Shown: one piece after another, positions 4,278 to 28,591 of the stretch
Layout: each line of letters begins with the position of its first letter
Position numbering within the stretch: position 1 is the stretch's first letter
Assembly: GCA_009837885.1 (NCBI GenBank)
Contig: VXSP01000011.1
Coordinates: 1-64,000 of the forward strand
Origin: Holophagales bacterium
GTDB taxonomy: Bacteria > Acidobacteriota > Thermoanaerobaculia > Multivoradales > Multivoraceae
Reading direction: 5' to 3'
Length of the DNA: 64,000 nucleotides
Notes under the pieces: model-generated
What the model was told of the DNA's origin: nothing
The model's database searches: none
Seen by the model: the letters and a program-made list of their open reading frames with translations, nothing else
Made by a program: the position numbers and the translations under genes

Positions 4278-5441
4278 ATGCACAAGTCGACTTGCCGGCA
4301 GCCGTGGACGGCTGTGCCCTCAACGCTGCTTCTCGCCTTCGCGGTCTTGACGGGTTCCGCCCTCCACGCGGAGTCGGATCTCACGCCGCCGTCCCGGGAG
4401 TACTACGCCTACGTCTGCGCCGAGTCGGAGGACGAGGTGGCTCTCGTCCGCTTCGGACCCTCCGGGATCGAGGTGACGAAGACGATCACCGTCGGCAGCT
4501 TCCCGGCCGAAACGGAAGGTCCGCACGGCATCAACATCTCGCCGGGCGGCCGCTACTGGTACGTGTCGATCGCCCACGGCAACCCGTTCGGCTCGATCCA
4601 CAAGTACGAAACCGGGACCGACGAGTGGCTGGGCGACGTTCGGGTCGGCATGTTTCCCGCCACACTCGACGTGGCCGCCACCACCGGGCTGCTCTTCGTC
4701 GTCAACTCGGACTTCTACGGCGACCACGTACCGAGCACGATCTCCGTCGTCGAAACGTCAACGATGACCGAGATCGCTCAGTTCGAGAGCGGGACCATGC
4801 CGCACGGCGCCCGGTTCAGCCGGGACGGCCGGAAGCTCTACAGCGCGAACATGATGGACGACGAACTCGTCGAGATCGACGCGCTGCGCTTCGAGGTTGG
4901 CCGCCGCCTGAAGCTGGGCCGGACCGCGCACTCGGCGAGCGGGCACGCGGGACACGGCGATCACACGGGCGCTTCGGCAGGGCACGGCGCCCACGGCCAG
5001 CCGAGCGTCGAGCCGTCGTGGGTCACCCCGCCCACCACCGGCGGCCTCGTCTACATCACGGCCCTCTCGGGGAACGCGATCTACGAGGTCGACACGAGCG
5101 CCTGGAAGGTCTCCCGGCGACTGGAGACGCCCGCACCCGGGCCCTACAACGCCGCCGTGGCGCCCGACGAGCGGCTGCTGGTCGTCACGTACAAGAAGGG
5201 CGACTCGGTCGGCTTCTGGGACCTGGAAGAGGGCCGGGAAGTCGCCCGGGTGTCCACGACGCGTCGCATCCCTCATGGCGTCGCCATCACGTCGGACGGG
5301 CGCTTCAGCCTGGTCACCGTCGAGGGTGTCGGCGGCGAGCCGGGCGTCGTCGAGGTCTACGACAACGGCGCGTTCCGGCGCGTAGCCCAGATCGACATCG
5401 GCAAGCAGGCCGGGGGTATCGCGCTCTGGGAACCGAATTGA
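4278..5441 (+). CDS. Secreted YVTN-family beta-propeller protein with His-rich loop
   Basis: 387 residues from the ATG at 4278, chosen because it follows GGAGGT at 4267-4272 and gives a proper signal peptide (TLLLAFAVLTGSALHA). An earlier ATG at 4230 would overlap the previous gene and bury the signal. Repeats such as GINISPGGRYWYVS, GARFSRDGRKLYS and AAVAPDERLLVVTYK are YVTN/cytochrome-D1-like blades. A loop at nt 4926-4999 carries six His within 23 residues mixed with Gly, Ala and Asp, a likely metal-binding insertion. The protein probably works in the periplasm or outside the cell. It pairs with the LVIVD propeller upstream and is translationally coupled to the membrane protein downstream through a TTGA overlap. 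Confidence 0.78.
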   Translation: MHKSTCRQPWTAVPSTLLLAFAVLTGSALHAESDLTPPSREYYAYVCAESEDEVALVRFGPSGIEVTKTITVGSFPAETEGPHGINISPGGRYWYVSIAHGNPFGSIHKYETGTDEWLGDVRVGMFPATLDVAATTGLLFVVNSDFYGDHVPSTISVVETSTMTEIAQFESGTMPHGARFSRDGRKLYSANMMDDELVEIDALRFEVGRRLKLGRTAHSASGHAGHGDHTGASAGHGAHGQPSVEPSWVTPPTTGGLVYITALSGNAIYEVDTSAWKVSRRLETPAPGPYNAAVAPDERLLVVTYKKGDSVGFWDLEEGREVARVSTTRRIPHGVAITSDGRFSLVTVEGVGGEPGVVEVYDNGAFRRVAQIDIGKQAGGIALWEPN

Positions 5442-6928
5442 CACCGTCCGGCCCGGATCGGACGGCGACTTCGGAGGCAGACGCCGCCGAATTGCAAGGC
5501 CGGTTGCTGCGCGGTCTCGCCGCCACCGACCGCCGGCTACGCCTCCGGCGCGCGCTGAAGGCCCTCACCTGGTTCGGGCCCGCCGCCTGCCTGTGGCTGC
5601 TCGCCAGTTGGCTGCTGGCGTTGGGCGCGACGGGCGGGGGCGGCCTCGCCGCACTCTGGCCCTGTTGGGCCGGCGGCGCCGTCCTCCTGCTGCTCGCCCT
5701 GCGAGAGACGGCGGCACTGGGCCGCGACCTTCCCGCGGCCGCCCGCGCCGTCGACCGGACGGGCGACCTGCATGACGCGGTCGCCACCGCGCTGGAGATG
5801 CAGCGCCGGCTGGACGACTCGGGCGCCGACCGGCGGCGCGAGGGCGACGGCACAGTCTGGCCCCTGCCCTGGATCGCCCTGGTCCTCGAGCGCGCGGTAG
5901 CCGGACTCGAGCGAATCGGCCCCAAACAGACCGTGCCGCGGCTGGTTCCGCGAGGCACCCTGCCATCCGCCGGAGTCAGTCTGCTACTGCTGCTGCCGGT
6001 AGCGCTGCCCCGTTCCTTCGTCGGCGAAGCGCTGGCCGCGGCGATGAGCGGCGACGCGGCCGGCGACCTCCCGCCCGGTTTCGAAGCCGCCGCCCTGCTT
6101 GAAGACGATCCCAACCGGATACCCGGCATACCGGAACTCGACGTGAGACTCAGCGACCTGCCCTTGGTGACGCTGCGCGTCCGCGAACCCAACGCCGGAG
6201 ACGACTCCCGTAGCGGTGACTCGACAGACGCGGCCGAAGGCAGCCTCGGCGACGGGGCGGAGGCCGAAGCGCTCGACGCGACGGCGGAGGGCGGCGAAGC
6301 CGCGGCCAACGCTCTGACGGACGAGACGAACCCGGAAACGGGCGCCGACCTGATGCGTGAACTCGACAACCGCGAGGGAACCGGCGAGGAGGAAAAGGGG
6401 ACCGCGCCCGGCACGGAGGGCAGCGGCGAGGGGACGGAGCCCGGCGCCGAAGCCGGCGAAGGCGACGGTTCGGGCGGCCAGCCCGTCGAAGACGGCGAGG
6501 GTTCCGGCGACGAGAGCGGCACGGCGGCCGCGGTCAGCGACGAACCGGGCTCGAGCGACGGCGAAGCGGACGGCGCCGCGGCCGGAGTCGGCACCGGACC
6601 GCAGGAGGAGATGGTCGATCCCTTCGGCGACCTCCTCGTCCCCGCTCTCAGCCTGGAACAGGCCCTCGAAACCGCCCTGCTCGAATCGATCGAGGAAATC
6701 GAACGCCGCCCCCTGACCACGACCAGCGCCACCCAGTTCCGAGCCGCGGAAGTGGCCATGCGCGGGGTCGCGCCCGGCGTCGCCGCCGAAGCCGCGGCCT
6801 CGAACGGAGACTTGCCGGCCGCCCGCCACCCGATCGCCTGGCGCCACCGGGAATCCGTGCGCCGCTACCTGGAAGCGCTGGAGGCCGAAGCCGAGGAGGG
6901 CAGTGACGCCGAGGAGGATCGGGAGTGA
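5438..6928 (+). CDS. Membrane protein with acidic low-complexity region, head of the MoxR operon
   Basis: I choose the TTG at 5438, inside the TTGA that ends the previous gene, because the reading frame first looks like protein there. This gives 496 residues. N-terminal hydrophobic segments lie at about 45-63 and 69-88, with a third around 179-190. Residues ~225-400 are a Glu/Asp/Gly/Ser/Ala-rich stretch without predicted structure. A short ordered C-terminus follows (LEQALETALLESIEEIE). I do not recognise a named family. Placement directly before moxR, with a GTGA overlap, argues that it belongs to the MoxR/VWA machinery, perhaps as the membrane-anchored client or adaptor. The acidic tract could bind divalent cations, which VWA domains also need; this is speculative. 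Confidence 0.65.
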   Translation: MTPSGPDRTATSEADAAELQGRLLRGLAATDRRLRLRRALKALTWFGPAACLWLLASWLLALGATGGGGLAALWPCWAGGAVLLLLALRETAALGRDLPAAARAVDRTGDLHDAVATALEMQRRLDDSGADRRREGDGTVWPLPWIALVLERAVAGLERIGPKQTVPRLVPRGTLPSAGVSLLLLLPVALPRSFVGEALAAAMSGDAAGDLPPGFEAAALLEDDPNRIPGIPELDVRLSDLPLVTLRVREPNAGDDSRSGDSTDAAEGSLGDGAEAEALDATAEGGEAAANALTDETNPETGADLMRELDNREGTGEEEKGTAPGTEGSGEGTEPGAEAGEGDGSGGQPVEDGEGSGDESGTAAAVSDEPGSSDGEADGAAAGVGTGPQEEMVDPFGDLLVPALSLEQALETALLESIEEIERRPLTTTSATQFRAAEVAMRGVAPGVAAEAAASNGDLPAARHPIAWRHRESVRRYLEALEAEAEEGSDAEEDRE

Positions 6929-7938
6929 ACGACACCGCCCAGCCGCGGACCGCGGCCGATCTCGCGCTGCAACTGACTGAGTTCGCGGACCGTTGCAGCC
7001 AACTGCGCACCGAGATCGGCAAGGTCATCGTGGGCCAGGAGAAGGTCGTGGACGGCGTGATCATCGGCCTGCTGGCGGATGGTCATGTCCTGCTCGAAGG
7101 CATCCCCGGACTCGGCAAGACGCGTCTCGTTCGCACCCTGGCCCAGGCGCTGCACCTCAGGTTCAACCGGATCCAGTTCACGCCCGACCTGATGCCGGCG
7201 GACATCGTCGGCACCCACGTCCTCCGCGAAGACGAGACCGGAGGGCGCCGGCTCGTCTTCGAGCGCGGTCCGATCTTCGCGAACCTGCTGCTCGCCGATG
7301 AGATCAACCGCGCCACGCCGAAGACCCAGTCCGCACTGCTCGAGGCGATGCAGGAGACGACGGTCACGGTCGGCGGCGAGACGAGCCCCCTCGATCCGCC
7401 GTTCTTCGTGCTCGCCACGCAGAACCCCCTGGAGATGGAGGGCACCTATCCGCTGCCCGAAGCGCAGCTCGACCGCTTCCTGTTCAAACTGCGGATGATC
7501 TACCCGGCGACCGAGGAATTGCACACGATCCTCGACCGCACGACCTCCGGTCACGACCCTGAGGCCGATGCGCTCTGGACCGCCGAGCAGGTGGTCGCCA
7601 TGCGGCGCGCGGCCCGCCTGGCGCCGGTGGCGCGCCCGGTCCAGGACTACGCGATCCGGCTCGGGCTGGCGACCCGGCCGGAGGGGGAGCATCCCGCGGA
7701 GGCGGTGCGCCGCTACATCCGCATCGGCGCCAGCCCGCGCGGCATCCAGGCGATGGTGCTCGGCGCCAAAGTCCACGCGCTGATCCGGGGCCGGCCGAAC
7801 GTGTCCCGCGAGGACATCCGCGCCGTGGCGCTCCCCGCCCTGCGACACCGTGTCCTGTTGAACTTCGAGGGCGAAGCCGCGCGGGTCGACCTCGACGAGT
7901 TGCTCCAGGACCTGGTCGACAGCGTGCCCGAGGGCTGA
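6925..7938 (+). CDS. moxR: MoxR-family AAA+ ATPase
   Basis: 337 residues; GTG start in a GTGA overlap with the gene before, preceded by GAGGAGG. Walker A GIPGLGKT is at residues 59-66 and Walker B LLLADEINRA at about 121-130. The MoxR signature TQNPLEMEGTYPLPEAQLDR follows, with a lid domain to the end. MoxR ATPases act as chaperones that work with VWA-domain proteins to assemble or activate metal enzymes and envelope complexes. Here the ATPase is followed by a DUF58 protein, a BatA-like membrane protein and a large VWA protein, the classic order for this system. The cellular substrate cannot be read from the sequence. Confidence 0.93.
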   Translation: MNDTAQPRTAADLALQLTEFADRCSQLRTEIGKVIVGQEKVVDGVIIGLLADGHVLLEGIPGLGKTRLVRTLAQALHLRFNRIQFTPDLMPADIVGTHVLREDETGGRRLVFERGPIFANLLLADEINRATPKTQSALLEAMQETTVTVGGETSPLDPPFFVLATQNPLEMEGTYPLPEAQLDRFLFKLRMIYPATEELHTILDRTTSGHDPEADALWTAEQVVAMRRAARLAPVARPVQDYAIRLGLATRPEGEHPAEAVRRYIRIGASPRGIQAMVLGAKVHALIRGRPNVSREDIRAVALPALRHRVLLNFEGEAARVDLDELLQDLVDSVPEG

Positions 7939-7963
7939 GCGGGCGGGCTCCAAGCTCCGAGCC

Positions 7964-8869
7964 GTGGCCGACCACTCCGTCTTCACCTTCGAACCGGCCT
8001 TTCTCGCCCGGCTGGAGCGCCTGCGCCTGCTCACCCGGCGCGTGCCCGCCGGCGGCTTCAAGGGGGAGCACCGCGCCAGCCACCTCGGCTCCGGGCTCGA
8101 GTTCGCGGACTACCGCCCCTACGTCGAAGGCGACGACGTGCGCCACCTCGACTGGCGCGCATACCTGCGGTTTGACCGTCTGCTGCTCCGGATGTTCGAG
8201 GAGCACGGCGACCTCGCGGTCTACATCCTGCTGGACTGCAGCCACTCCATGGCGCCGACGCCCGGACCAGGCGGCCGCCGCAAGTTCGACGCGGCGCGCC
8301 GAATAGCGGCCGCCCTGACCTACATCGCGCTGGCCACCCTCGACCGGGTCACTCTGGCGCCGTACTCCGGCCACGTGCATCAGATCCTCGGCCCGCTCCA
8401 CGGCTCCCGCCAGGTCTGGCGCGCCCTCGACTACCTCGCCAATCTCGACACCGGCGGCGAGACCCACCTCGACCGGACCGTCCGGGAAGTGTTCGCCGCC
8501 CGCCGGCGCCGCGGCCTCGTCATCGTGATCTCGGACCTCCTCTCCGACACGACGGAGGGCGGCCTCGACCTCCTGCTGCCGCTCCGGCACGACGTGGCGG
8601 TCGTCCAGGTGACCGATCACCGCGATCTCGAGGCGCCGCTCGACCGCGACACGACCCTTGTGGACAGTGAGACGGGCGATTCACTCCGGATCCACGGCGC
8701 TCCCAACCTGCTCCACCGCCTGGAGCGAGAGGCGGAGGCCCACCGGGAGGAGATCCGCGCCCGCTGCACCGCCCGCGGCTGGTCCTTCATCCACGCCCCG
8801 GTCGAAGCGTCCTTCGAAGAACTGGCGCTCGGCGCCCTGCGCCGCGGTCTGCTCAGCCGGGGTCGATGA
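7964..8869 (+). CDS. DUF58-family VWA-like protein
   Basis: 301 residues from a GTG. The DUF58 core is clear: GSGLEFADYRPYVEGDDVR at ~42-60 followed by HLDWRAYLR. A MIDAS-like D91-C-S-H-S95 motif opens the VWA-type fold (VYILLDCSHSM), and a VIVISDLLSD strand lies further on. DUF58 proteins are regular partners of MoxR ATPases in aerotolerance-type (Bat) operons. The protein has no membrane segment and is probably cytosolic, linking the ATPase to the membrane VWA proteins encoded next. Its stop overlaps the next start (ATGATG at 8866). Confidence 0.9.
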   Translation: MADHSVFTFEPAFLARLERLRLLTRRVPAGGFKGEHRASHLGSGLEFADYRPYVEGDDVRHLDWRAYLRFDRLLLRMFEEHGDLAVYILLDCSHSMAPTPGPGGRRKFDAARRIAAALTYIALATLDRVTLAPYSGHVHQILGPLHGSRQVWRALDYLANLDTGGETHLDRTVREVFAARRRRGLVIVISDLLSDTTEGGLDLLLPLRHDVAVVQVTDHRDLEAPLDRDTTLVDSETGDSLRIHGAPNLLHRLEREAEAHREEIRARCTARGWSFIHAPVEASFEELALGALRRGLLSRGR

Positions 8870-10578
8870 TGCCCTTCTGGCTACCGCTCGGGATCACGGC
8901 CCTGCTGGTTCTGGCGATCTACCTCATCCGACCCACCGCGCAGGCGCTGCCGGTCGCCTCCACGGTGCTCTGGCGACGCCTGCTGGCGGCGCGCAAGCGG
9001 CGGCGCGACCGCCTGCGCTGGCTGCTCTCGCTGCTCCTGGCCACGACGGTCGCCGGTTTCCTGTCGGTCGGGGCAAGCCGGGCGCCCTGGCTGCAGCCCG
9101 GCGGCGGCGACCCGATCGCCCTGGCCTTCGACCCGTCGCCGACGATGCAGGCGGGCCTGCCGGATGGAGGCCCGAGCCGGATCGAACTGGCCGCCGCCGA
9201 GGCGCGCCGGATCGTCCTCGAAGCGGAAGCCGGCAGCCGTTTCACCGTGAATGCCGATCCGACGCCGCTGACCTCGACGGAGGTGCTGGCGGTCCTCTCC
9301 GACCCGCTGGAAGGGCTCTCGAACGCCCCCGACACGGAACCGGCGATTCCCACCGCCCGGCGGGTCCACGTGTTCACCGACGGAATCGGGCCGTACACGC
9401 CGATCGTCGACCCCGGTACGGAAACGCACACCGTGTCCGTCCTCGTCCCGGCCCGGAACGCCGGCATCGTCCGCTTCGCGACCCGGCCGCCGGCAACCCG
9501 CGTCGCGGGGCCGGAAGCTCTGCTCGAGATCCTGGCGACCGATCCGGCCGGCGGCACGGTACCGGTCGAGTTGACGGTCGCCGATTCGGAGACGATCCGC
9601 ATCCGCCGGCAACTCGAGCTCGAACCCGGCGACCGCTTCACCGCCCTGATCGACCTCGGCAGCTTCGCCCCGGGCCCCGTCACGGCGCGGATCGCAACGC
9701 CCGGGGACGTCTTGCCGCTCGACAACCGGGCCGGCCTGATCGACGCCGGCCGAGCCGGAACCGCATCGACCCGTCTTCCCGTCCGTCACGCCCGCAGCCG
9801 GACCGAGCCCAGGCGCGTCCTGGTTGTGGCCCGCAGCCCGGGCTCGTTCGCAGGCTCCGCCGCCGCGCTCGCTCTGGAGGCGGACGCCTCGGTCGACGTG
9901 GTAGGCGTCCGCGCGGCAACCGGCGCCGACGATCCCCCACCGGAGGAGCCGCCTCCCGCGGCGGACATCGCCACGTTCCACCGGACCGCGCCGGCGATCC
10001 CGCCGGGGATGCCCGCCCTGTACCTCGCCCCGCCGCAGGCGATCGCGGCCGGCGGCCTGTCAGCCGCCGCTGAAGCGCCCCTGTCACCACGCCGGATCGA
10101 CCGGACCGACGCCTCCCATCCTCTCCTGGCAGGCGTCTCCCTCCTCGACCTGCCGGTCGTCGTCGCCGCCCGCGAGCTGGATCCCCACTGCGCCGCCCTT
10201 GCTTCAGCAGGAGACCGTACAGCGATCGCTGTCTGCGGGCCGCCCCCCGGCAGCGGCCCCCGCTCCCTCACCGTCGCCTTCGACCTGGATCACTCTTCCC
10301 TGGCCCAGCGCCCCGACCTCGCCGCCCTGTTCCAGAACGCCGCAGCCTGGCTCACGGAAACCCCCGCCATCGCCGGCGATCTCCCCGCCGACACCGGCCT
10401 CCAGGACGAACGCGCGACCCTCATCAACGCCTCGACCCTCGAACCCGTCCCGACCAACCACCTCGCCAACCTCGACAGCCCCAACCGCCGCCCCTGGTCC
10501 TGGCGCACCCTCGCCCTCGCCGGCCTCCTGCTCGCCTCGTTCGAGGCCATCACCTTCTTCCGCGGCCTGACCCTGTGA
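8866..10578 (+). CDS. BatA-like membrane protein with N-terminal aerotolerance domain
   Basis: 570 residues. Two N-terminal membrane helices (about 5-22 and 50-67) flank a basic loop (LLAARKRRRDRLR), typical of the BatA N-terminal region. A VWA-like segment begins at IALAFDPSPTM; the MIDAS is imperfect (D-P-S-P-T). The remaining periplasmic part has beta-rich, Pro-rich sequence and the protein ends with a membrane helix near 547-565. In MoxR operons such proteins present a VWA-like domain to the periplasm. ATGA coupling to the DUF58 gene indicates co-translation. After its stop the operon spacing suddenly opens to 247 nt, where a palindromic element is found, before the next VWA gene. Confidence 0.8.
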   Translation: MMPFWLPLGITALLVLAIYLIRPTAQALPVASTVLWRRLLAARKRRRDRLRWLLSLLLATTVAGFLSVGASRAPWLQPGGGDPIALAFDPSPTMQAGLPDGGPSRIELAAAEARRIVLEAEAGSRFTVNADPTPLTSTEVLAVLSDPLEGLSNAPDTEPAIPTARRVHVFTDGIGPYTPIVDPGTETHTVSVLVPARNAGIVRFATRPPATRVAGPEALLEILATDPAGGTVPVELTVADSETIRIRRQLELEPGDRFTALIDLGSFAPGPVTARIATPGDVLPLDNRAGLIDAGRAGTASTRLPVRHARSRTEPRRVLVVARSPGSFAGSAAALALEADASVDVVGVRAATGADDPPPEEPPPAADIATFHRTAPAIPPGMPALYLAPPQAIAAGGLSAAAEAPLSPRRIDRTDASHPLLAGVSLLDLPVVVAARELDPHCAALASAGDRTAIAVCGPPPGSGPRSLTVAFDLDHSSLAQRPDLAALFQNAAAWLTETPAIAGDLPADTGLQDERATLINASTLEPVPTNHLANLDSPNRRPWSWRTLALAGLLLASFEAITFFRGLTL

Positions 10579-10636
10579 TCGAGCAACTCGCCTGTCCCAC
10601 ACGCCGGGGCCGCCCCGTCAACCCGACGCCGACCAG

Positions 10637-10811
10637 CCCGGCCGGGAGCGCCGGGAAGGGTTCCCAGGGGGTCGGAGGTAAGCGACTCCCCGCGCCCTTC
10701 CAGCAAACGACGCCAAAACGAAGCGCAGCCGACAACAGCGAGCCCAACCTCCCCCTCCTCTCCCTGAGGGCGAGCGTCCCCTGGGAACCCTTCCCCGCGC
10801 TCTCGGCCGGG
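10637..10811 (-). repeat. Palindromic dispersed element, copy A (inverted relative to copy B)
   Basis: Two 34-nt arms, 10637-10670 and 10778-10811, are inverted copies with 32 of 34 positions matching (one G-T wobble, one mismatch). They enclose a 107-nt core. The inner 18 nt of the left arm are GGGAAGGGTTCCCAGGGG. Read on the minus strand, the core aligns without gaps to copy B at 28372-28478, with about 68% identity by hand count and shared blocks GCTCGC, GTCGGCTGCG, GGCGTCG and GGGAGTC. The outer flank GGCGGGTA (10810-10817) is also shared as TACCCGCC in copy B. It fills most of the 247-nt gap between the batA-like and VWA genes. It could be a MITE-like element or a structured RNA. Confidence 0.8.
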
Positions 10812-10825
10812 CGGGTACCAGCACC

Positions 10826-13432
10826 ATGACGTTGCAGGAACCGCTCTGGCTGCTAGCCGCGCTGCCGGTCGCGGCGCTCCTGTGGTCCCAGCGCAGCGAC
10901 CGGCCGGACCGGCAGCGCCGGCGGCTGCTGTGGGTGCGCGGATCGTTGTTGATGGCCGTCGTGCTGGCTCTGGCGGAGCCGGTCGCGACCTGGCGTACGC
11001 GCGAACTCGACGTGGCCGTTCTGGTCGACGTCTCGGCCAGCATCGAGCCGGCCAGCCTGAACCGGGCCCTCGAGGCAATCGAGAGTGGTCTTGATCCCGA
11101 CGATCCCGTACGCCTGTTCGCGTACGCCGATCGGGCCGCCACCGTCGCCGATCCGGCGGACCTCAGGCGGCTCGAAGTGGCCGACTCCAGCACCGCCTCG
11201 GCCGGCGCCGCCGCCCTCGACCGCGGCAACACGCGGCCGGACGCTGCCCTCCGTCAGGCCGCCGCGACGCTGCGTCCCGATCGCGTGCGCCGCGTACTGC
11301 TCCTCTCTGACGGGCAAGGCCTCGCGGGCGCCGGCGCCCGGCTCGCGGCCGAGTACCCGGAACTCCGGGTCGACACCGCGGTTCTCGGCCGGACGGCGCC
11401 CCCCGTCTGGATCGAATCGGTCGAACTCGACGACAACGAACGGCCGCTGCGCGCCGGAGAGGCCCACGGCTGGGTGCTCCGTCTCGGCAGCCGTTCGTCG
11501 CTGCCCGAAGCTCCCCTGACCCTGCGCAGCAACGGTGCCGAGGAGCTGCGCAGCGTCGCGCTCTCGCCGGGCGTCACCACCGTCGAACTGGAGTGGACCT
11601 TCGACGAGCCCGGGATGCAGACCTTCGAGGCAGTCCTCGGAACGGGCGAAGGCGCCGCTGCCTCAGAGGGCGCGATGTGGCGAGGCAGCCTGCGGATCGT
11701 GCCTCCGCACCGCGTCCTGCTGCTCGCGCCCCAGAACCATTCGACCGACCTGCAGAGGCTGCTCCAGGCGCAGGGCCTGCGTGTGATCCGGTCCACCCCG
11801 AGCCGGGCCGCCCTGTCGCCTTCGTCGCTCAGAAGCTACGACGCGGTCTTGCTCAGCAACGTCGCCGCCGCCAGCCTCCCGGAACCGGCCCAGGAAGCCC
11901 TGGGCGAGTGGGTTTCGGACGAGGGCGGTGGACTCTTCTTCGTGGCCGGGGAGGAGACATTCGGCGAGGAGGGCTACCGGAACTCGCCTCTCGAGCGCGT
12001 TCTGCCGCTCGACTTCGAGATCGAGGAGGAGCGCAGCGAGGTGGCGCTGATGATCGCGCTCGACAAGTCGTACAGCATGAAGGGCCCGAAGATGGACCTG
12101 GCCAAGGAGGCGGCCAAGGCCGCGCTCGGCATGCTGAACGAGCAGCACCGCTTCGGCCTCGTCGCCTTCGACTGGCACACCCACGACATCGTCGGCCTGC
12201 AGTTCGTACGCGACCAGGAGCGACTGAACCAGAGAGTCGACCGCATCGAGGCCAGCGCCCAGACGAACTTCTACCCGGCTCTGGAGGCCTGCCTGGAGCA
12301 GCTTTCCGCGGTCGAGTCCGAGGTCAAGCACGTCATCCTGGTCTCCGACGGCCGGACCTATCCCGACGAGTACGAACAGCTCGTCCTGCGGATGAGGCAG
12401 GAGGAGATCACCGTCTCGACCGTCGCCATCGGCGTCGAGTCCGACCGGGAACTGCTCGCCGACATCGCCGACTGGGGCGACGGCAACGCCTACACGATCG
12501 AGGACGCGAGTTCCGTCCAGAGCATCCTGATCGACGAGACGATGAACCAGCTCCCCGACTCGGCCCGCGAAGAGACGATCCTGGTCGAACTGCGCGGCCA
12601 GTCGGACGCGCTGGCTGGAGTCGACGTCGCCAGCGCGCCGGAGCTCTATGGCCGGATCGCGGCAGTGGCCAAGGACAGCGCCGAGGTCATCCTCGCCGCT
12701 GGTGAGGCGGATCCGATCCTGGCCAGCCGCTACGTCGGCCTGGGCAAGACCTGGATGTTCACGTCCGACCTCGAACCGCGCTGGGCAAGCGACTGGCTGC
12801 GCTGGCCGGAGCTGGGCCGGCTCGTCGCCCAGGTGGTCCGCGACGCCGCCGACCGCCGCGCCGGCGCCGAGTGGGAGTTCGATCTCGACCGTCGCGACGG
12901 AGTGCTCGAAGCGGCACTCAGCGTGGTCGAAGAGGATGGCCGCTTCGGCAGCGACCTTTCACCCCGCCTGGTCGTCCTGCGTGGCGACCGCCGGATCGAG
13001 GCGCCGCTGCAACGCACCGGACCCGGCCTCTACCGCCTGGTGTCCGAAGAAGGCATGCTGCTCGCGCCCAGCCTCGAGCCCTACCGCGTGGAGGTCCACA
13101 CCGGCCCCGCCGGCGCCGCCGAGACGATCGGCCCGGGCCGCACGATCTTCTACCCCGCCCGCGACGAACTCCGCCCCGGCGCTCCCGACATCGCGGCGCT
13201 GGCCGCGCTCGCAGCGGAAACCTCCGGCCTCTTCCACGAAACGGTTGCGGGCGCCGTCGGCGCCATCACCGCCCCCAGCGCCGACACCGCCGTCCGCCGC
13301 TTCGACCTCTGGTCCGTCCTCCTGGTCGCCGCGACGCTCCTGTTCCTCGCCGAACTCCTGCTCCGTCGCCGGCGGCGGCACGGCGCGTCAACCGTGATTC
13401 CGGTCCCCGCCGAAACCCGCCCCGCCGCCTGA
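10826..13432 (+). CDS. Large membrane protein with two VWA domains and a glutamine amidotransferase-like domain
   Basis: 868 residues. Membrane helices lie at about 6-20 and 34-55, and one near the C-terminus (WSVLLVAATLLFLAELLL). A first VWA domain has an intact MIDAS (VLVDVSAS), and a second starts near residue 410 with MIALDKSYSMKG. Between them a class I glutaminase-like fold is suggested by AVLLSN, GGGLFFVAGEETFG and GYRNSPLERVLP at ~335-395, without an obvious catalytic Cys. This architecture is typical of the last VWA protein of MoxR/Bat operons. The C-terminal half looks like beta-sandwich domains facing the periplasm. Its last 45 nt overlap the convergent ROK kinase gene. Confidence 0.82.
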   Translation: MTLQEPLWLLAALPVAALLWSQRSDRPDRQRRRLLWVRGSLLMAVVLALAEPVATWRTRELDVAVLVDVSASIEPASLNRALEAIESGLDPDDPVRLFAYADRAATVADPADLRRLEVADSSTASAGAAALDRGNTRPDAALRQAAATLRPDRVRRVLLLSDGQGLAGAGARLAAEYPELRVDTAVLGRTAPPVWIESVELDDNERPLRAGEAHGWVLRLGSRSSLPEAPLTLRSNGAEELRSVALSPGVTTVELEWTFDEPGMQTFEAVLGTGEGAAASEGAMWRGSLRIVPPHRVLLLAPQNHSTDLQRLLQAQGLRVIRSTPSRAALSPSSLRSYDAVLLSNVAAASLPEPAQEALGEWVSDEGGGLFFVAGEETFGEEGYRNSPLERVLPLDFEIEEERSEVALMIALDKSYSMKGPKMDLAKEAAKAALGMLNEQHRFGLVAFDWHTHDIVGLQFVRDQERLNQRVDRIEASAQTNFYPALEACLEQLSAVESEVKHVILVSDGRTYPDEYEQLVLRMRQEEITVSTVAIGVESDRELLADIADWGDGNAYTIEDASSVQSILIDETMNQLPDSAREETILVELRGQSDALAGVDVASAPELYGRIAAVAKDSAEVILAAGEADPILASRYVGLGKTWMFTSDLEPRWASDWLRWPELGRLVAQVVRDAADRRAGAEWEFDLDRRDGVLEAALSVVEEDGRFGSDLSPRLVVLRGDRRIEAPLQRTGPGLYRLVSEEGMLLAPSLEPYRVEVHTGPAGAAETIGPGRTIFYPARDELRPGAPDIAALAALAAETSGLFHETVAGAVGAITAPSADTAVRRFDLWSVLLVAATLLFLAELLLRRRRRHGASTVIPVPAETRPAA

Positions 13433-28317: not shown

Positions 28318-28338
28318 GCGGCGTCTGGGCGGATACCC

Positions 28339-28511
28339 GCCGGCGCGGGTCCGGGGAGAGGCTCCCAGGGGATGCTCGCACTCACTTGGTGAAAGGGACT
28401 GGAGTGCTCGCTTCGGTCGGCTGCGTTTCGCATGGGCGTCGGTTTCGGGCACGGTGTCGGGAGTCACTTGCCTCCAGCCCCCTGGGAGCCTCTCCCCGGA
28501 CCCGCGCCGGC
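28339..28511 (+). repeat. Palindromic dispersed element, copy B
   Basis: A perfect 33-nt inverted repeat (28339-28371 and 28479-28511) encloses a 107-nt core. The inner 18 nt of the left arm are GGGAGAGGCTCCCAGGGG. Against copy A this arm differs at three places, and at each the right arm carries the complementary change. Core blocks GCTCGC, CTCGCT, GTCGGCTGCG, GGCGTCG and GGGAGTC are shared with copy A. It lies between the sirtuin stop and the hsp20 promoter, in a 381-nt intergenic region. No convincing reading frame is shared by the two copies. Confidence 0.82.
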
Positions 28512-28591
28512 TGGACGTTGCTGGACGCCGGCTGCTGGCTCGTTCATCGAGATCCGAACTTGACACGGACTCGAATCTTATATGGTATTCA

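Follow-up and report, generated by a model that had tools for sequence, protein, structure and literature searches.

The REP and REPIN sequences of the GTAG and CGTC families are, in the part of their description that was available (PMC3733652), dispersed extragenic palindromes of 20–40 bp which occur near the 3' ends of genes. The ERIC/IRU, RU-2 and Correia elements and other MITE-like repeats are characterised, in a source likewise available in part, as small, non-coding, mobile intergenic palindromes that can fold as RNA (PMC2229807). Template switching is described to homogenise the arms of inverted repeats and to invert their spacers (PMC8604942, available portion), and paired changes in the inverted repeats of yeast genes and RNA genes have been tied to this process (PMC8604942; PMC8794818; both in part).

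The window, that is the whole stretch of 64,000 nt from the Acidobacteriota contig VXSP01000011.1 that was analysed, contains a run of genes interrupted by an intergenic palindrome, designated copy A (Table 1; gene positions are from a codon-score script rather than annotation). The original prediction of a tight run from 4278 to 10578 was borne out: neighbouring genes overlap at 5438/5441, 6925/6928 and 8866/8869 and are separated once, by 25 nt. Also borne out was its statement that the 247-nt gap that follows is mostly palindrome, the arms spanning 10632–10816 and leaving 53 nt of the gap to their left and 9 nt to their right. The label "batA-like" for the gene at 8866–10578 was without support, as this gene had no Pfam match at 0.001. 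For the last gene of the operon (10826–13432), Pfam gave a VWA match at 408–567, a GATase1-like stretch at 597–670 and two stretches of VWA_2.

Table 1. Positions of the operon genes and of the palindromic copies in the window
Feature	Position	Strand	Remarks
First gene of the tight run	4278..5441	+	Start at 4278 (ATG) is one of three candidates
Second gene of the run	5438..6928	+	Candidate TTG start overlaps the stop ending at 5441
MoxR-type AAA ATPase gene	6925..7938	+	Pfam; start overlaps the stop ending at 6928
DUF58 protein gene	7964..8869	+	Pfam; 25 nt after 7938
Operon gene 5' of the element	8866..10578	+	Start overlaps the stop ending at 8869; no Pfam match
Intergenic gap with copy A	10579..10825	.	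247 nt between 10578 and 10826
Copy A, match to family model R1	10620..10826	-	157.5 bits, model 1–207
Left arm of copy A	10632..10670	.	39 nt, 92% complementary to the right arm
Core of copy A	10671..10777	-	Family central motif at 10722–10743, minus strand, 2 mismatches
Right arm of copy A	10778..10816	.	39 nt, stops 9 nt short of the last gene's ATG
Last operon gene, VWA and GATase1-like regions	10826..13432	+	Pfam
Copy B	28325..28527	+	Canonical orientation; arms 28336–28371 and 28479–28514

Among inverted pairs in the window with arms of at least 22 nt and a spacing of at most 300 nt, copy A is the longest of five and is followed by copy B (28336–28514), which lies 7 nt past the stop codon of a Sir2-family gene. 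The arms of copy A are 107 nt apart, and with its canonical strand on the minus strand it is reversed relative to the operon. The stretch 10620–10825 was predicted to fold with a minimum free energy of −117.4 kcal/mol on the plus strand (z −7.3) and −134.5 kcal/mol on the minus strand (z −5.6), with 0 of 200 shuffles as good in either case.

Compared with the REP and REPIN palindromes as described in the available text (PMC3733652), the element shares dispersal and a position near gene 3' ends, but is much longer, at about 190 nt with arms of 39 nt. From ERIC/IRU, RU-2 and Correia, going by the portion of their description at hand (PMC2229807), it is set apart by arms which vary greatly between copies and match within them, and by having been seen in one Acidobacteriota genus. 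It resembles the template-switching inverted repeats, as far as the accessible accounts go, in arm homogenisation, paired changes and spacer inversion, here seen as a pattern only; those repeats were reported in yeast genes and RNA genes, whereas the present case is a dispersed bacterial family with many copies in 21 genomes (PMC8604942; PMC8794818).

Extent and placement of the repeat family

When the gap was used as query against its own genome, 27 rows were returned: one was the query itself, two were its arms on the opposite strand, and the remaining 24 lay at other places. A family model, R1, built from a 26-copy alignment which included copy B, gave at least 45 sense matches in the examined stretches of this genome, 4 of the 45 being partial and three being cut by contig ends so that they could be pieces of shared copies. 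A pattern for the central motif was found at 43 places in the genome, with none for the reversed control. The element is about 185–190 nt long, non-coding, palindromic and dispersed. A protein-coding insert of the kind of the Rickettsia elements was considered and rejected: the element is partly open in one frame, but gaps of one and two bases interrupt the alignment of its copies.

At E ≤ 1e-6 the element was detected in all 21 genomes of the genus and in none of 126 sampled genomes from the rest of the class. At E ≤ 1e-3, weak matches were found in three of 39 genomes outside the genus and in none of the three from the other genera of the family. Copy numbers per genome in the relatives are lower bounds, and the model matched few copies in G016 (at least 7) and G019 (at least 9), so it may overlook the variant of these two genomes. 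The close relatives are Acidobacteriota MAGs named Holophagales, Thermoanaerobaculia, Vicinamibacteraceae, 'Ca. Multivorans thiocomprendens' or plain Acidobacteria, and are presumably of sponge origin. Rfam gave no match at gathering scores for the whole window, and a permissive search with copy A and six loci returned weak matches below the cut-offs only, the best of which (E 0.004) lies outside the element. No description of this palindromic repeat family was found in the open-licence literature. Copy A belongs to a new repeat family of a known kind whose arm evolution is unusual.

Of the 42 copies in this genome whose 5'-side gene was scored, 35 lie in the canonical orientation past the stop codon of that gene; for 32 of the 35 the model start is at −9 to +70 nt. 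The 3'-side gene shows no preference (21 versus 22). The same placement was found in the other genomes for 66 of 78 scored copies, 65 of the 66 within the same interval (from a set of 83 copies, some of them orthologs of one another). Copy A, inside the operon, is a reversed exception, and site E is another. Pfam was run on 20 of the 33 upstream genes and matched 18, among them EF-G, RecR, RelA/SpoT-type, MoaA-type and Sir2 genes.

Two facing copies 0.5–1.1 kb apart were seen at six loci. Five of these, in five genomes (L111, L112, L113, L115 and L116), hold the same gene, TPR-like by eye, between the copies. A transposase carried between the paired copies was looked for among the ORFs of all six by eye and none was seen.

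Evolution of the stem and core

The arms of a copy match each other far better than they match those of other copies, at 95.5% with their own partner (67 equal-length copies) versus 64.6% between copies (572 equal-length pairs). Much of the arm sequence is not conserved, with the exception of the outer ends ACCCGCC and GGCTGG. Arm lengths also agree, being equal in 67 of the 83 copies with a landmark (58 of 141 copies, without one, were left out), against a mean of 20.5 and a maximum of 37 in 5000 shuffles. At site D, read by eye, the lengths of the G-run and C-run are 4/4 in G001, G017 and G018, 5/5 in G004 and G014, and 6/6 in G003; in G011 the run lengths agree and one base does not.

The 1600 stem pairs of 42 disjoint ortholog pairs with a core difference of at most 15% held 26 complementary double changes, eleven of them of the transversion type, versus 3.3 expected if the two sides were independent. 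Some copies treated as orthologs may have been inserted independently at one site, in which case the number of double changes would be too high. The same ortholog pairs had five non-complementary double changes and 83 single changes (13 G-U, 27 A-C, 40 other and 3 from mismatch to mismatch). Over all within-group pairs, where the counts are not independent, 343 complementary and 52 other double changes were found versus 54 expected.

A change of another kind was seen by eye at site C (L169, outside the set of 42 pairs), where the core of G005 lies in the opposite orientation to those of G006 and G008, with the same arms on either side. This is one case, and a crude end test found no other core inversion in 136 other copies, many of which are without clear ends.

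The changes in arms and core fit template switching of the DNA better than they fit selection on RNA alone, without proving it. Against template switching stands the excess of single changes over complementary double ones (83 versus 26), and selection could yield double changes too if it acted on a structure irrespective of its strand. One competing explanation is a functional RNA structure at the 3' end, protecting the upstream message or limiting read-through, with RNA selection keeping the stem paired. Such a role, judged possible but on the unlikely side, would explain the fixed orientation past stop codons and agrees with the strong covariation of the stem, in which 121 cells changed on both sides compared with a shuffled mean of 38. 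The canonical strand is also the one with the lower predicted energy for 128 of 136 copies, by a mean of 11 kcal/mol with composition uncontrolled, a difference compatible with an RNA role. Where the majority of a core pair is Watson-Crick, G-U cells outnumber A-C cells, at 228 versus 118 on the canonical strand and 76 versus 62 on the reverse; however, the structure behind these counts was predicted with G-U pairs permitted, and by itself the core folds about as well on the reverse strand (−44.5) as on the canonical one (−46.3). In the arms the relation is the opposite, with 34 G-U versus 87 A-C mismatches on the canonical strand (135 distinct copies out of 136, those shorter than about 190 nt left out). 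Equal arm lengths and transversion-type double changes are moreover hard to reach stepwise under RNA selection, and copies are absent from many orthologous sites. No T-tract (6 T in 8 near the 3' end of the stem) was found in 140 family copies, which makes a standard intrinsic terminator unlikely. An effect of the element on mRNA stability is possible.

Mobility, turnover and the operon junction

The size of the element, its inverted arms and its intergenic spread recall a classical MITE or a REP-type element moved by a transposase in trans, as does its presence and absence at orthologous sites, and REPs likewise lie near gene 3' ends according to the available text (PMC3733652). Such an origin is conceivable though not favoured. 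The Y1 (RAYT) family, which was the transposase family searched, had no match in this genome (G000, 97.6% complete), with the control positive in five of 14 genomes. The arms vary among copies, the consensus ends are without GTAG, and the CGTC seen past the consensus 3' stem is missing from some copies. No clear target-site duplication was seen at the sites read by eye, where the flanks changed with the insertion. With no clear duplication and no transposase found, mobility rests on presence and absence. The attC sites of integrons are also sequence-variable, folded and placed after genes in a fixed orientation, in an array. The copies described here share variability, folding, placement past genes and fixed orientation, but are scattered, with no array. 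A search for the integron integrase gave four matches, none over the cut-off; since all 14 controls stayed below it as well, the cut-off lacked a positive control.

Sites designated B to E were compared across the genus. Site B, in 21 genomes, has a model match in G000 only and a remnant in G011, and site C has one past the gene in 8 of 20 readable genomes (G017 was unreadable, and an R1 match elsewhere in locus L176 of G004 was not counted), with remnants seen by eye in G007, G010, G011 and G013. Site D was covered in 20 of 21 genomes and site E in 17, nine of the latter being filled, five empty and three carrying a different palindromic insert. This different insert, in G015, G010 and G001 (L302, L303 and L306), is larger and ends in TCTCTGGGTGCGCGGACC and its complement. 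In two distant species of the genus, G011 and G020 (L146 and L156), the gene at site B is followed by a short palindrome with GGGAACCGAT at its centre, and at site C of G020 (L185) the element itself holds a further palindromic insert. G000 and G015 (L271 and L272) share 661 nt of coding sequence ahead of site D at 99.8% identity despite the last operon genes of these genomes belonging to different clades, which points to recent exchange between species.

The junction occupied by copy A is a TGATG stop/start overlap in 13 of the 21 genomes of the genus, carries a full element in seven (G000, G001, G017, G009, G013, G016 and G019) and a remnant in one (G020). All full copies share one orientation and end about 9–15 nt ahead of the start codon. 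The suggestion that an element had been inserted into a once tight operon, for which a comparison of this junction in close relatives had been proposed, is supported by the element-free tight junctions. In three outgroup genera of the family, where the upstream gene was unrecognised by similarity, a candidate start of the last gene likewise overlaps the preceding stop or follows it 6 nt later. The protein starts with MTLQEP here and, across the filled genomes, with MTLQEP, MTFQEP, MTLLEP or MNLLEP, versus starts of the MPIALQEP type in empty ones. In G009 (L052) the right arm is apparently tandem-duplicated before this start codon.

The filled state requires at least three changes on the tree of the last gene, on which the filled G000 clusters with the empty G006, which implies more than one gain, loss or exchange of the filled state. 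For the gene trees of sites B and C the minimum is 4 and 5 changes. Purifying selection acts on the last gene in lineages with the element and in those without it; dN/dS is 0.13 to 0.36 in four pairs with both members filled or remnant-bearing.

A regulatory element of the operon, setting the amount of the last protein, had also been proposed. The seven junction copies with their single orientation and their position just ahead of the start codon speak for this, as does the loss of the TGATG coupling; it is nonetheless improbable, since 13 of the 21 genomes are without the element, no internal stop interrupts the last gene (or its available part) in any of the 21, and the same element follows unrelated genes (EF-G, RecR, RelA-type, Sir2). 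An effect of the element on the expression of the last gene is plausible, given the lost coupling and a stem which ends 9 nt before the new ATG. That the gap is ancestral and the overlap arose by deletion in most species is very unlikely: in its favour, 5 of the 7 genomes in the divergent clade are filled, but empty alleles of both clades have TGATG in common, with ATGCCGATC in 12 of 13 (all but G007), and the candidate starts are tight in the outgroups.

Proposed origin of copy A

Copy A is best explained, with a probability of roughly two in three, as an insertion of a genus-specific palindromic repeat whose arms are kept matched by template switching and whose core is sometimes flipped. Under this explanation, switching within the hairpin during replication would copy one arm from the other so that the arms stay matched, and would now and then flip the core too, while deletions would truncate or remove copies. 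Filled alleles could move between species via homologous recombination of the flanking DNA, and it is chiefly at the 3' ends of genes that new insertions would be tolerated. Translational coupling of the last operon gene would have been broken by the insertion, with a new start codon then being used.

A more speculative extension, held to be doubtful, is that of an enzyme-free selfish palindrome in which the hairpin is copied, with switching renewing the arms, flipping the core and perhaps seeding copies, and with recombination accounting for exchange between species. If true, this would be a selfish palindrome family of lasting shape and changing sequence.

The origin of paired changes in stems is an old question, and it can be followed here in one hairpin with many copies, in 21 genomes, with both filled and empty sites. 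The paired length changes and the inverted core allow template switching to be weighed against RNA selection in this family. It should also be taken as a caution that covariation alone, strong as it is here, need not imply a functional RNA.
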